A stretch of DNA of 64,000 bases from Candidatus Azobacteroides sp. GTDB lineage: Bacteria; Bacteroidota; Bacteroidia; Bacteroidales; WRGA01. The notes under the pieces were generated by a model. It saw only the letters and a list, made by a program, of their open reading frames with translations. It was not told the origin of the DNA and ran no database searches. A program made the position numbers and the translations under genes. Where the stretch lies: positions 34,607 through 98,606 of the forward strand of contig WRGA01000124.1 of the NCBI GenBank assembly GCA_009787405.1. Direction: 5' to 3'. Below, in pieces: positions 1,212-20,923 of this stretch (positions are counted from its first letter, which is position 1; each line of letters opens with the position of its first letter).

Positions 1212-1687
1212 TAAATACGTTGTTTCGGGATGATTAACAGACATTATATTGATTAAATGATAACTATACTGATTATCAATTTGTTTAATATCTAAAAATT
1301 GCTTATTCTATATAAACTCTAATATCTGCAATAAGCCCGCATTTAATGCCGAAACCACTGTATTTTATTGATTTTCAATACTCTTCCGATGACTCTGACA
1401 CCGCCTGCTGTCAAGCGTCAGCTCTATTATTTTCTCTTTAATTACTTGAGTATATGCATTATAGCGATATTCCCGTTGCAATGAGAGCATAATATTTCGG
1501 GGATATGTATCATTTGGTTTTTTTGAAAAAATAACACCTTTCAGTCAATTTAAGCACTACCTCGGAATCGATGCAAACTACAACCGGTTTTTAAAATAAT
1601 ATTTTTTACGCCGATTCTTCTCCTTTTTAACAATTCTTAAACAAATTTATTTTGATAAACCAAGGAGTTCTCACTACTTTTGCCTCG

Positions 1688-1758
1688 TAATTTTTTCATA
1701 GTATTAGATTTAAGGTTAATAACTAAAGATTGGTTGTCGGGATGACAACCTTTTTTTT
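1688..1758 (+). ncRNA. Small RNA, copy 1 of a tandem family
   Basis: A Bacteroidota promoter (TTTG at 1651-1654, 20-bp spacer, TACTTTTG at 1675-1682) is followed by a conserved core (CATAGTATTAGATTTAAGG) and then a 7-bp hairpin, GGTTGTC/GACAACC (1732-1750), with an eight-T run. Promoter and intrinsic terminator bracket about 70 nt with no usable reading frame, so this is most simply a short transcript. The start site is inferred from promoter spacing. The core resembles repeats I associate with Bacteroidales genomes, but I cannot name a family. It could also act as a terminated leader, though no gene follows directly. Confidence 0.6.
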
Positions 1759-1871
1759 GCCCGTTTTTCATACAATCTGACTCCTATCCTTATTCTCTTC
1801 TTTTTCAGACTGTACCTTATTGATAAAACCTTTGTACAAAATAAGAGAATATGGATGTCGTAAAACCGTTT

Positions 1872-1935
1872 TATATTTTAAACGCCAAGGCACAAAGACG
1901 GAAAGACGCGAAGTTTAAATTCTTTGTGGCTTTCT
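1872..1935 (-). repeat. Dispersed palindromic repeat, copy A (truncated)
   Basis: Contains the family core TTTAAACGCCAAGGCACAAA followed by GACGGAAAGACGCGAAGTTT and an ATTCTTTGTG arm. It is shared in reverse orientation with copies near 9.76, 10.58, 10.94 and 54.09 kb and in the same orientation with copies near 12.53 and 22.88 kb. The element is an imperfect inverted repeat able to fold on itself. It has no coding capacity. Confidence 0.6.
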
Positions 1936-2253
1936 ATCGGACAACATGTCCTTTCGAATGAATAGTGACGGACAACATGTCCGCCACGGCGGGGAAAATA
2001 GGAGTTGTCTATATCCGTTTAACGATGCATTTTCATCAAATACAGCATGAAAGTGCCGGCAAAAGAATAAACTATCTGCCAATATTTTTACATAAAAAAA
2101 GGAAAAATACGTCATAATCGCCCTATTTGAGGCAAAATCAATAAACTTCCCATTAATAGTCAAACAGTATTTAACTTAAAGTACTATATTCATTAACAAT
2201 TTTTAAGGCAATTTTTTTGGAAATACATTCAAATCATGCATACATTTGCACTG

Positions 2254-2321
2254 TGTTTTTCATGGTATTAGATTTAAGGTTAACAAAAGAAGATTGGTTG
2301 TCGGGATGACAACCTTTTTTT
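2254..2321 (+). ncRNA. Small RNA, copy 2 of a tandem family
   Basis: This copy has TTTG at 2216-2219, a 21-bp spacer and TACATTTG at 2241-2248. The core CATGGTATTAGATTTAAGG is followed by GTTAACAAAAGAAG and the same hairpin GGTTGTC/GACAACC (2296-2314) with a seven-T run. Compared with copy 1 only a few bases differ, and both promoter and terminator are intact. Outside these units the flanking DNA is unrelated, which indicates that the transcribed unit itself is the conserved thing. Confidence 0.6.
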
Positions 2322-2411
2322 ATTTATACCGGTTCCGTCATGCTTACTTATTAACAATTATTAGAGTAAAAAATTTTGAAATTCAGACCATCCGGACTTA
2401 CCTTTACAGCG

Positions 2412-2585
2412 TGATTTTTCATGGTATTAGATTTAAGGAATTATCACAAAATAAATAGAACACCTAAAACAGCTAATTACCTGTAAATGTGTAATTTAAT
2501 TTATATAAGTGTTACATTTATTTATTGACAATTCTTAAGGTTAACAAAAAGAAAGATTGGTTGTCGGGATGACAACCTTTTTTTT
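2412..2585 (+). ncRNA. Small RNA copy 3, interrupted by a 96-bp insert
   Basis: The 5' half (core to TTTAAGG, ending at 2438) and the 3' half (TTAAGGTTAAC to the hairpin 2559-2577 and T-run) are separated by 96 bp of unrelated AT-rich DNA. The promoter has TTTG at 2375-2378, a 20-bp spacer and a weakened -7 box TACCTTTA at 2399-2406. The copy is therefore probably damaged, although a transcript of about 170 nt could still form. Confidence 0.5.
2439..2534. mobile_element. MITE-like 96-bp insertion in sRNA copy 3
   Basis: Comparison with copies 1 and 2 defines the insert exactly. It is flanked by a direct TTAAGG duplication (2433-2438 and 2535-2540). Its ends form an imperfect inverted repeat (AATTATCA at the left, TGACAATT at the right; 15 of 18 positions match when extended). 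It is AT-rich and non-coding. These are the marks of a miniature inverted-repeat element, though low complexity weakens the inverted-repeat argument. Confidence 0.45.
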
Positions 2586-2745: not shown

Positions 2746-4818
2746 ATGGCTAAAATAATGATAAATGATCAATTGATCAACCCCCAAAGCATAGTGGTGG
2801 TCGGAGCTTCAAATGATATTCACAAACCGGGCGGAAAAATCGTGAAAAATCTGCTCGACGGAAAATACGAAGGCCGGTTATATGCCGTCAATTATAAAGA
2901 AACCGAAATCCAAGGCATCCGATCCTACCCGAACATCCATGATATTCCCGACACAGATCTGGCAATTTTAGCTATTCCGGCAGCATCCTGCCCGGAAGTG
3001 ACCGCCGTTTTGGTCAACCGGAAAAACGTCAAAGCCCTTATCATCATATCTGCCGGATTCGGGGAAGAAACTCCCGAAGGCGCCAAACTGGAAGAACAAA
3101 TCCTGAATACCGTCAACCATGCCGGCGCGGCGTTAATCGGCCCCAATTGCATCGGATTGATTACGCCATACCATCACAGTGTATTTTCCCGTCCGATTCC
3201 CGATTTGCACCCTCAAGGCGTGGATTTGATTTCCAGTTCGGGGGGGACGGCTCTTTTCATCATGGAATCGGCCATGAACAAAGGACTTCGCTTCGCATCG
3301 GTATGGTCGGTCGGTAACGCGAAACAAATCGGTGTGGAAGAAGTGCTGGAATATATGGATATTCATTTCGACATCGAAAAGGATTCCAAACTGAAAATGC
3401 TTTACATCGAAAGCATCAAAAATCCCGACAAACTTTTAAAACACGCCTCTTCTCTCATCAAAAAAGGATGTAAAATAGCCGGAATCAAAGCCGGATCAAC
3501 CACATCGGGACAACGAGCGGCGACATCGCATACAGGAGCAATCGCCAATTCCGACTCGGCAGTGGAAGCTTTATTCAGAAAAGCCGGAATCGTTCGTTGT
3601 TACAGTCGCGAAGAATTAACCACGATCGCTTGTGTTTTCACATTGAAAAAATTGACGGGAAAAAACATCGGAATCGTCACCCATGCCGGAGGACCTGCGG
3701 TATTGCTCGCCGACGCCTTGTCGAAAGGAGGATTGAATGTTCCCTTTCTCTCCGGCCTGGTCGCCGACGAACTGAAAAGCAAACTTTTTCCCGGAGCAGC
3801 CGTCGGCAATCCCATCGATATTATCGGAACAGGCACCCCGGAGCATTTGGGAATTGCCATCGATTATTGCGAAAAACGATTCGATAACATTGATGAAATC
3901 ATCGTTATTTTCGGAACACCGGGATTGGTAAAAGTATATGAGGCTTACCGTGTGTTAGACGAAAAAATGAATACTTCGACCAAGCCGATCTTTCCGGTTC
4001 TGCCCTCTGTCACCACAGCAGAAGGAGAAGTAAAAGATTTCATTAAAAAGGGGCATGTCAATTTTTCCGATGAAGTACTTTTGGGAACGGCCATAACGAG
4101 AATTATGCAAACCGCCGGGCCTACGGTCGGAGAAATCGAACTGGACGGTGTGAATATTCCCGAAATCAGACGCATCATCGACTCCATCAATCAACCGGGT
4201 TATATTCCTCCGGCACTCACTCAACAATTGTTAAAATCGGCGGGCATCCCGCTTGTCAAAGAATTTGTCTCTTCCGACAAAAAAGAAATCATTGATTTCT
4301 CCAAAGAAATCGGATTTCCGGTAGTGATCAAAGCCGTAGGCCCCGTTCACAAATCGGATGTCGGGGGCGTTGTTTTGGACATCAAATCGAGCCGCCATTT
4401 AGAATTTGAGTTCGAACGAATAATGAATATTCCCGAAGCGACGGCCGTACTGATCCAACCGATGTTATCGGGAAGAGAACTTTTCATCGGGGCAAAATAT
4501 GAAAATAAATTCGGTCATATCGTACTTTGCGGATTAGGCGGAATTTTCGTCGAAGTGCTGAAAGACATTGCCTACGGATTGGCGCCGTTGAGCTATTCTG
4601 AAGCTTTTTCGATGATCCGGTCGTTGAAATCATACAAAATCATCAAAGGAACCCGCGGACAAAAAGGAATCGACGAAAACGAGTTTGCCGAAATCATTGT
4701 CCGACTATCGACATTGCTGCGTTTCGCAACCGAAATCAAAGAAATCGACATCAATCCGCTTTTGGCAACTCCGACCGGGATTATTGCCGTAGACGCACGA
4801 ATAAGAATAGAAGAATAA
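2746..4818 (+). CDS. acd: ADP-forming acetyl-CoA synthetase (alpha-beta fusion)
   Basis: The 690-residue protein begins with a CoA-binding Rossmann domain (IVVVGASND near the N-terminus), continues with a succinyl-CoA-synthetase-like domain carrying the phosphorylated-histidine motif SHTGA, and ends with an ATP-grasp domain (VIKAVGP, KSDVGGV). This is the order of fused NDP-forming acyl-CoA synthetases, which make ATP from acetyl-CoA (or related acyl-CoA) plus ADP and phosphate. The frame is open upstream to 2557, but that stretch contains the sRNA terminator and promoter, so ATG 2746 is chosen. A role in fermentative ATP formation is inferred; the preferred acyl group cannot be read from the sequence. 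Confidence 0.88.
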   Translation: MAKIMINDQLINPQSIVVVGASNDIHKPGGKIVKNLLDGKYEGRLYAVNYKETEIQGIRSYPNIHDIPDTDLAILAIPAASCPEVTAVLVNRKNVKALIIISAGFGEETPEGAKLEEQILNTVNHAGAALIGPNCIGLITPYHHSVFSRPIPDLHPQGVDLISSSGGTALFIMESAMNKGLRFASVWSVGNAKQIGVEEVLEYMDIHFDIEKDSKLKMLYIESIKNPDKLLKHASSLIKKGCKIAGIKAGSTTSGQRAATSHTGAIANSDSAVEALFRKAGIVRCYSREELTTIACVFTLKKLTGKNIGIVTHAGGPAVLLADALSKGGLNVPFLSGLVADELKSKLFPGAAVGNPIDIIGTGTPEHLGIAIDYCEKRFDNIDEIIVIFGTPGLVKVYEAYRVLDEKMNTSTKPIFPVLPSVTTAEGEVKDFIKKGHVNFSDEVLLGTAITRIMQTAGPTVGEIELDGVNIPEIRRIIDSINQPGYIPPALTQQLLKSAGIPLVKEFVSSDKKEIIDFSKEIGFPVVIKAVGPVHKSDVGGVVLDIKSSRHLEFEFERIMNIPEATAVLIQPMLSGRELFIGAKYENKFGHIVLCGLGGIFVEVLKDIAYGLAPLSYSEAFSMIRSLKSYKIIKGTRGQKGIDENEFAEIIVRLSTLLRFATEIKEIDINPLLATPTGIIAVDARIRIEE

Positions 4819-18898: not shown

Positions 18899-20923
18899 AT
18901 GAAAAAGCATTTTTTCATAAAAAGTCTGTATACATTTTTAACATTATTTTTCTTAATAAATCAAAATATACAAGCGCAAAATCCGGTTTCAAAATTCGGA
19001 GAAGTCAATGATTATGAAATCAATATGACAAGTTATCCCGAAGACACGACAGCCACAGCCGTAGTCTTATCGGAAAAAGGAGAAACCCGATTTATTTATG
19101 ATGAGCAATCCGGATTTCGTTACAAATACGACTATCAGGTAAAAATAAAAATCTTAAAACCTGAAGGAATAGAAGAAGCGAATGAAACGATCGAATATAC
19201 AAACATAAATTCCAAGTCACGGGAAGAAATTTCGGGACTTTCCGGCACTACTTACAATCTTGAAGATGGAAAAATTGTTAAAGCCAAACTGTCCAAAGAA
19301 TTTATAAACGACGAGAAATATGACGAAAAGTTTTTCCGCAAAAAATTCACCCTGCCGGCCGTAAAAGTCGGTTCAGTCATTGAATATAAATACACCATCT
19401 ACTCCGATTTTTTTTATGATTTAAGGGATTTCCGGTTTCAACACCATATTCCCGTCGTGAAAACTACTTATGATATAATCATTCCGGAATATTACCATTA
19501 TAATATTGAAATGCGCGGTTATGAATCTATCATCTCCAAGCAGGAAGCCGTATCAGAAAAGTTCACCATCCGATACAGCCATATCGAAGAAAACGGACGT
19601 ACCTACCATGAAAGTTACGATATAAACAGCAACAGCAAAAGATACTATTTTGAAGGAAAAAATATTCCGGCACTCAAAGACGAACCGTTTGTCTGGTGTT
19701 TGGATGATTATATTTCAAAAGTAAGCTTCGAACTGCAAAGCATACACTACCCGCAAAGTACCGTCAAAAATTTCAGCAGCGATTGGGCAACTGTAGACAA
19801 AGAATTGCTGGATGCAAGTTCGTTCGGAGGGAATTTGAAAAAAAACGACATGGTTAAAGATCTGGTCAAAGAATTTGACACGATAAGCAATCCGGTATCC
19901 AAAGTCATTCAAATTCAAAACATGATTAAAAGTACGGTCAAATGGAATGAAAAAAACCGGCTTACATCCGATGACATAAAAAATGCACTCAAAACCGGAC
20001 TGGGAAGTAGTGCAGACATGAACTTTTTATTGATTAACGCACTGAATGCCGCCGGAATAGAAGCTTTTCCTGTGGTCATGAGCACCCGCAGCAACGGTAC
20101 ACTTCCTTTCTCTCACCCGTCCATTTCAGCACTCAATTATTTCATCACGGGAATAAAAATCGACACGGTGACTTATTTCACCGACGTATCCGCAAAATCA
20201 GGATCTTTGAACATTTTACCCCAAACGTGTTTAGTAAACAGAGCAAGAAGCATTAAAGAAAACGGACGTTCCCAATGGGTGAATCTAACCAAAGTATCGT
20301 CGGGAAACATTACCAAAAATATCTCATGCAAATTTGAAGACGGTGTTTATACCGCAACAATCAACACTTGGTACAAAGATGAATCTGCGTATGATTTTCG
20401 GTTAAATCAAAACAATTACAAAGACGAAGACGAGTATAGGGAAATTTTAGAGTCAAAATTCGCAGGAGCGATCGACAATTATTCCACAACCGGAATTGAA
20501 AATACATCTGCTCCCATCAATGAAAAATTCAAAGTAAAAACCAATATCGGCACAGGCGGCGAATACATCTACCTGACGGCACTGTTTGAACCGCAATTTA
20601 CAGAAAACAGATTCAAATCGGAAGAACGGAAATTACCGATCGAATTCAATTATCCCATCACCTTCAGAGAAAATATATCGATTGAAATTCCGGAAGGTTA
20701 CACCGTGGAAGACTTACCCAAATCCGAAAAGTACACATTTGACGATGGAAGCAAAATAAGCTGTTTGTATCAAATCATACATCAAGACAACACTATTTTT
20801 TTAAAATACAATTTTACGCAAAAAGAAATCATGTTCATAAATACAGATTACGAACATTTGAAAAATTTCTTTGCCAAAATAGTAAGTAAAAGCGGGGAAA
20901 AAATCATTTTAAAAAAGATGTGA
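18899..20923 (+). CDS. DUF3857 / transglutaminase-like protein, apparently inactive
   Basis: The 674-residue protein has a signal peptide ending at NIQAQ, a DUF3857 beta domain in the N-terminal half, a transglutaminase-like core around residues 345-460 and a C-terminal beta domain. Where the catalytic Cys motif is expected (GxGDC) it reads GLGSSADMNFLL, and the His position reads ALNYFITG. Both catalytic residues therefore look replaced. It probably works as a periplasmic binding or scaffold protein. The second DUF3857 gene follows after 28 bp and keeps the active site. Confidence 0.85.
   Translation: MKKHFFIKSLYTFLTLFFLINQNIQAQNPVSKFGEVNDYEINMTSYPEDTTATAVVLSEKGETRFIYDEQSGFRYKYDYQVKIKILKPEGIEEANETIEYTNINSKSREEISGLSGTTYNLEDGKIVKAKLSKEFINDEKYDEKFFRKKFTLPAVKVGSVIEYKYTIYSDFFYDLRDFRFQHHIPVVKTTYDIIIPEYYHYNIEMRGYESIISKQEAVSEKFTIRYSHIEENGRTYHESYDINSNSKRYYFEGKNIPALKDEPFVWCLDDYISKVSFELQSIHYPQSTVKNFSSDWATVDKELLDASSFGGNLKKNDMVKDLVKEFDTISNPVSKVIQIQNMIKSTVKWNEKNRLTSDDIKNALKTGLGSSADMNFLLINALNAAGIEAFPVVMSTRSNGTLPFSHPSISALNYFITGIKIDTVTYFTDVSAKSGSLNILPQTCLVNRARSIKENGRSQWVNLTKVSSGNITKNISCKFEDGVYTATINTWYKDESAYDFRLNQNNYKDEDEYREILESKFAGAIDNYSTTGIENTSAPINEKFKVKTNIGTGGEYIYLTALFEPQFTENRFKSEERKLPIEFNYPITFRENISIEIPEGYTVEDLPKSEKYTFDDGSKISCLYQIIHQDNTIFLKYNFTQKEIMFINTDYEHLKNFFAKIVSKSGEKIILKKM

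Follow-up and report, generated by a model that had tools for sequence, protein, structure and literature searches.

The window analyzed in this work, that is, the whole stretch of 64,000 nucleotides from a contig of Candidatus Azobacteroides sp., harbors in a region of about 900 bp located 5' of an acd-like gene an array composed of two intact small RNA units and a split one (Table 1). A repeat search of the window placed unit 1 at 1692-1757 and unit 2 at 2256-2321 (92% identical) and recovered unit 3 as two pieces, 2415-2438 and 2519-2584; the sequence TAGATTTAAGG forms the core of all three, and each ends in the hairpin GGTTGTC/GACAACC followed by a T-run. Each unit is preceded by its own promoter, as judged against the published sigma-ABfr consensus (-33 TTTG/-7 TAnnTTTG). 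When the window was scanned with Rfam 15, units 1 and 2 were assigned to RF04319 (BTncRNA_FopS), defined as a "family of paralogous sRNAs", both exceeding the curator-set gathering score of 56 bits with E-values far past chance, while unit 3 was recovered as two fragments only, in a permissive scan. The matches begin 4-5 nt 3' of the respective -7 box, which places TAGATTTAAGG in the seed region of the RNA and not in the promoter. The description given in an earlier note on this DNA, which proposed an autonomous small RNA gene in three tandem units with individual promoters, a common core and terminator, the first two being intact and the whole array lying directly upstream of acd, is thus borne out by the repeat search and by the covariance search of Rfam that it had recommended. 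The acd-like product exhibits the Pfam domains CoA_binding_2, Succ_CoA_lig, and ATP-grasp_5, with NCBIfam scores below their cut-offs.

Table 1. Features of the small RNA array and of the adjacent gene (positions refer to the window).
Feature	Position	Strand	Basis
Upstream element of unit 1, TTAACAATTCTTAA	1627..1640	+	Sequence, repeat family D2
Unit 1 promoter: -33 TTTG (1651-1654), -7 TACTTTTG (1675-1682), 20-nt spacer	1651..1682	+	Sequence, sigma-ABfr consensus
FopS sRNA unit 1: seed ~1692-1715, TAGATTTAAGG 1705-1715, hairpin 1732-1750, T-run 1751-1758	1687..1760	+	RF04319, 69.0 bits, E 1.3e-9
Upstream element of unit 2, TTAACAATTTTTAA	2193..2206	+	Sequence, repeat search
Unit 2 promoter: -33 TTTG (2216-2219), -7 TACATTTG (2241-2248), 21-nt spacer	2216..2248	+	Sequence
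FopS sRNA unit 2: TAGATTTAAGG 2269-2279, hairpin 2296-2314, T-run 2315-2321	2253..2324	+	RF04319, 82.5 bits, E 3.3e-12
Upstream element of unit 3, TTAACAATTATTAG	2351..2364	+	Sequence, repeat search
Unit 3 promoter: -33 TTTG (2375-2378), -7 TACCTTTA (2399-2406) with one mismatch, 20-nt spacer	2375..2406	+	Sequence
FopS unit 3, 5' part: seed intact, TAGATTTAAGG 2428-2438, TTAAG end 2433-2437	2411..2437	+	RF04319 partial match 2411-2439, 32.2 bits
97-bp insert in unit 3, MITE-like, 25-bp terminal inverted repeats (20/25)	2438..2534	+	0/20,000 shuffles
FopS unit 3, 3' part: TTAAG 2535-2539, linker, hairpin 2559-2577, T-run 2578-2585	2535..2585	+	RF04319 match 2509-2587, 37.4 bits
acd-like gene, acyl/acetate-CoA ligase (ADP-forming), separate from the sRNA	2746..4818	+	Pfam domains

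FopS was described in 2025 in Bacteroides thetaiotaomicron, where it is present in 14 copies of about 65-70 nt, is transcribed from canonical sigma-ABfr promoters, is induced by bile salts and represses the translation of SusC by pairing with the region of the start codon, a repression opposed by RbpB, which binds FopS (PMC11697453). Judging from its sequence, the array is a further example of this already named and characterized family. Indeed, the 5' R1' seed of the units, intact also in unit 3, matches positions ~1-27 of the FopS consensus, with minor deviations at the 5' end and an A/G variation at a single position, and the units resemble those of B. thetaiotaomicron in layout, in the sigma-ABfr-type promoter, in the 3' intrinsic terminator (which covaries across the family) and in the multi-copy habit, given that the genome (2.8 Mb, 125 contigs, 91% complete) carries two further intact copies on other contigs, that is, four intact and one split. 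They differ in that the host lies outside Bacteroides, in that two intact units and a split one are gathered within 900 bp, and in the 97-bp insert of unit 3. GibS (RF04182) begins with the R1 seed as well, but the units of the window possess neither its R2 region nor its PM2 promoter, and the array scores 41.2 and 33.1 bits against a gathering score of 115. The multi-copy sibling sRNAs LhrC, Qrr, and OmrA/B, as listed in PMC11697453, likewise comprise several near-identical copies with overlapping targets, although FopS is unrelated to them in sequence, phylum, and chaperones.

As regards the targets, the reverse complement of the FopS seed reads ...AUCUAAUACC AUG AAAAA... and therefore spans a start codon. 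The base pairing with target mRNAs that the earlier note suggested looking for was found as computed complementarity to SusC start regions: the 5' end of FopS gave a median z of -2.95 over eight full-length SusC genes, some with uncertain start codons, against +0.06 for 47 ORFs of the window (one-sided P = 0.0007, scored against shuffled seeds and ignoring mRNA structure). The best value for a SusC start region was that of a gene on contig C112 (z -4.5). Shorter TonB-dependent receptors of the same genome displayed little or no pairing signal. Perfect target sites are absent from the genome, and a search for near-perfect ones retrieved, outside the sRNA genes, 3-mismatch sites only, mostly not at gene starts. 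Two RRM_1 proteins are encoded in the genome. We consider it very probable that the locus is a tandem FopS array, two units intact and one split, producing SusC-repressing sRNAs. According to this model, each unit would be transcribed from its own housekeeping-type promoter into a short RNA whose 5' end is the single-stranded seed GUGUUUUUCAUGGUAUUAGAUUUAAGG and whose 3' end is a terminator hairpin; this seed would pair around start codons, chiefly those of mRNAs for SusC-type glycan transporters, blocking their translation, an RRM-1 protein of the RbpB type would oppose this repression, and the presence of several copies would raise the dose. In this organism we observed the membership of the family, the promoters, the seed, the terminator, and the complementarity to SusC; transcription, repression, and the action of RbpB we infer from B. 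thetaiotaomicron. Within the window, the best pairing falls on the start region of a DUF3857/transglutaminase-type gene (18899-20920; z -3.8).

The third unit deserves separate consideration. The earlier note regarded it as damaged; it is indeed interrupted by the insert, which is flanked on either side by TTAAG 5-bp direct repeats, but the term is too strong, because promoter, seed, and terminator survive. The two 25-bp ends of the insert are inverted repeats of each other (20 of 25 positions), and in our view it resembles a MITE-type insertion. We also considered whether two units had fused via TTAAGG and rejected this reading, since the insert is no closer to the upstream regions of the units than shuffled sequences (386/500 and 74/500); an insertion fits better, as the ends of the insert form a 25-bp inverted repeat bordered by a 5-bp target repeat. 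A MITE with sister copies was sought as well, and no second copy was found in the assembly, the two weak matches of 18-21 nt being chance-like. Since the insert lies between seed and terminator, the unit could give rise to one RNA of ~175 nt, rather than 70, made up of seed, long hairpin, and terminator. It might even be speculated that unit 3 encodes an active paralogue of greater length whose stability or binding differs, somewhat in the manner of GibS, a reading confined to this unit, compatible with that of a FopS array and in agreement with the retention of promoter, seed, and terminator and with the predicted fold of the RNA, surpassed by only 1 of 200 shuffles (z -3.3). We are inclined to doubt it, because the low fold energy is a plain consequence of an inserted inverted repeat, the -7 box bears a mismatch, the GibS score of the array is far under the cut-off (41 versus 115 bits) and no relatives carrying the insert were found.

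FopS is spread across the order. The family is present in both genomes of the same genus and, of 247 genomes sampled evenly from the order, 54 yield a match at E 0.001 and 44 exceed the cut-off; ten named Bacteroides and Parabacteroides genomes contain 6-14 matches each and one Tannerella MAG contains one. Same-strand neighbors within 1 kb occur in at least seven of the tabulated genomes, and in one case (G219:C21:15920-16857, locus L153) four copies follow one another in steps of 288-289 nt, as in a fresh-looking tandem duplication. Tandem arrays are a habit of the FopS family, common in the order. The seed hardly varies among 217 unique FopS-like sequences, most of its 20 nt being conserved at 0.97-1.00 with one A/G position, and the terminator hairpin is present in 214, with stems showing many two-sided, compensated changes (e.g., GGTTGTC/GACAACC and GGAGTAC/GTACTCC); this covariation is descriptive and carries no significance test, as related sequences are included and the hairpin finder selects paired stems. 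A near-invariant seed combined with a compensated terminator stem points to selection on the transcript, which the earlier note had named, with duplication, as one of two possibilities. A FopS-like sequence, unannotated, is also found in the Bacteroides phage BX-TP2 (PQ571285.1, 44785-44851; locus L362, 974-1040), induced from Bacteroides xylanisolvens, where it adjoins a DNA methyltransferase gene and shares 86% identity with unit 2.

A different role for the units might be sought in their neighborhood, i.e., they might represent a cis-acting leader or attenuator of acd and not trans-acting sRNAs. The array lies just 5' of this gene on the same strand, and FopS is located directly 5' of acd also in the termite-gut Tannerella sp. 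(locus L104; FopS 3814-3887, acd from 4001) and in a Parabacteroides (locus L094; FopS 3450-3532). Nevertheless, every unit ends in its own strong terminator; in the same-genus genome G002, acd is present and the only FopS match is on another contig; of 80 relatives covered by a simple seed scan, just two had FopS close to acd, and neither the two other copies in the genome of the window nor dozens of copies elsewhere are linked to this gene. More generally, the copies occur in many contexts, tandem arrays included, so that the situation which the earlier note considered adverse to its proposal, namely, homologues always sitting as leaders of protein genes, is not the one observed. We therefore consider a leader function very improbable. 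The phylogenetic tree of the acd proteins placed the gene of the window beside sequences of the Parabacteroides/Tannerellaceae type (support 99/92), while that of G002 grouped with termite-gut Tannerella and Azobacteroides; by this placement, the host belongs to the Bacteroidales, outside Bacteroides. The idea that the array is mobile or repetitive DNA, non-coding, with a chance terminator and no regulatory function, which could appeal to the multiplicity of FopS, its occasional location at phage loci and the MITE-like insert of unit 3, is scarcely credible in the face of a near-invariant seed, a covarying terminator and a promoter spacing conserved across the order, and of the function proven in B. 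thetaiotaomicron (PMC11697453).

A further question concerns the regulator of these sRNAs, since the authors who described FopS left its activator unknown and did not link it to Cur (PMC11697453). In 64 of 131 FopS upstream regions, aligned on the -7 box, we found the palindrome ATGTTnnnnAACAT with no more than one mismatch (mean of 1.7 in shuffles, 1 in reversed sequences), which corresponds to the published consensus of the Cur/BT4338 operator, TATGTTnTAnAACATA (PMC3878776, PMC6989115). The latter is present at up to two mismatches of 14 in 59 of 130 copies (0.3 in shuffles). The motif thresholds were set after the first set had been seen, and the named Bacteroides set was fetched later: among these 80 mostly Bacteroides copies, two of which are probably spurious matches, 24 carry it at up to two and 45 at up to three mismatches (0.2 and 1.4 in shuffles, respectively). 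The survey embraced about 200 FopS promoters, read in genomes other than that of B. thetaiotaomicron. The sites are located at -23/-24 or at -56 from the -7 box, that is, 32 bp or three helical turns apart, and those at -23/-24 replace the TTTG (-33) box, which is absent from those promoters. The density of operators is 1.63 per kb near FopS, against 0.011 in the flanks and 0.057 in AT-rich flanks. Upstream regions bearing an operator are found among loci L002, L007, L016-L038, L163-L228, and L289-L361. In 15 genomes, 15 of the 42 exact ATGTTnnnnAACATAAA sites fall at FopS copies, counted by position; others precede gapA, aldose epimerase, and metA, named by eye from the translations. The genome of the window contains a single perfect operator, which belongs to the FopS copy of contig C76, and encodes three Crp-type proteins; an autoregulatory Cur site was sought at the three corresponding genes and none was found. 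The operator wwwTATGTTnTAnAACATAwww is absent from the three units of the window, which have canonical -33 boxes instead. PM2 was also considered as an explanation of the palindrome and discarded on the basis of the published assignments: PMC11697453 reserves PM2 for GibS and describes FopS promoters as canonical, and the sequence of the palindrome coincides with the published Cur consensus.

On the whole, these promoter data make it reasonably probable that Cur, a Crp-type protein with the role of master regulator for the use of carbohydrates, directly activates a large part of the FopS family through TATGTTnTAnAACATA, placed at -33 or 32 bp further upstream, and that the copies of the window would be Cur-independent. 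This connection, not drawn in the openly licensed literature searched, may be regarded as a strong computational lead and not as a demonstration. It is in agreement with the activation by Cur of another sRNA of B. thetaiotaomicron, MasB (PMC10994844), a precedent among these bacteria for the activation that we propose for many copies of FopS, even though FopS is a different RNA with a different target and the units of the window have no Cur-like site. If the idea were correct, carbon starvation would act through Cur and the FopS sRNA to switch SusC transporters off, and FopS would be a catabolite-control sRNA family with a role opposite to the known one of Cur as a PUL activator. The promoter survey names a concrete candidate, Cur, for the activator missing from the FopS paper, and makes FopS a candidate for the sRNA or RNA-binding protein under Cur control that PMC10294740 postulates without identifying it. 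Besides this lead, the comparison adds the order-wide spread of FopS, its frequent tandem arrays and the acd-adjacent copies, and it places the recently described network outside Bacteroides.

Lastly, the statement of the earlier note that the DNA between the units is unrelated requires some correction. Each unit is preceded, about 60 nt 5' and ahead of the promoter, by the element TTAAcaattnTTA (repeat family D2, starting at 1627, 2193, and 2351), whose form TTAA-N6-TTA is common to all three, and the upstream regions align with each other better than shuffles do (5, 0, and 2 of 500 reach the observed value). In 131 upstream regions from the whole order, GTTAA peaks twice, in the bins at -65 and -55 before the -7 box; in the units of the window, the spacing of the element is kept and its position is nearer than the order-wide peaks. 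As a guess, TTAA-N6-TTA might be an UP-like sequence or the site of a regulator. The same intergenic DNA embeds a 19-nt inverted repeat (89%) with a 33-nt spacer directly 3' of unit 1 (1786-1804/1838-1856) and, between units 1 and 2, two identical copies of the palindrome-like CGGACAACATGTCC (1938-1951 and 1969-1982), 31 nt apart.
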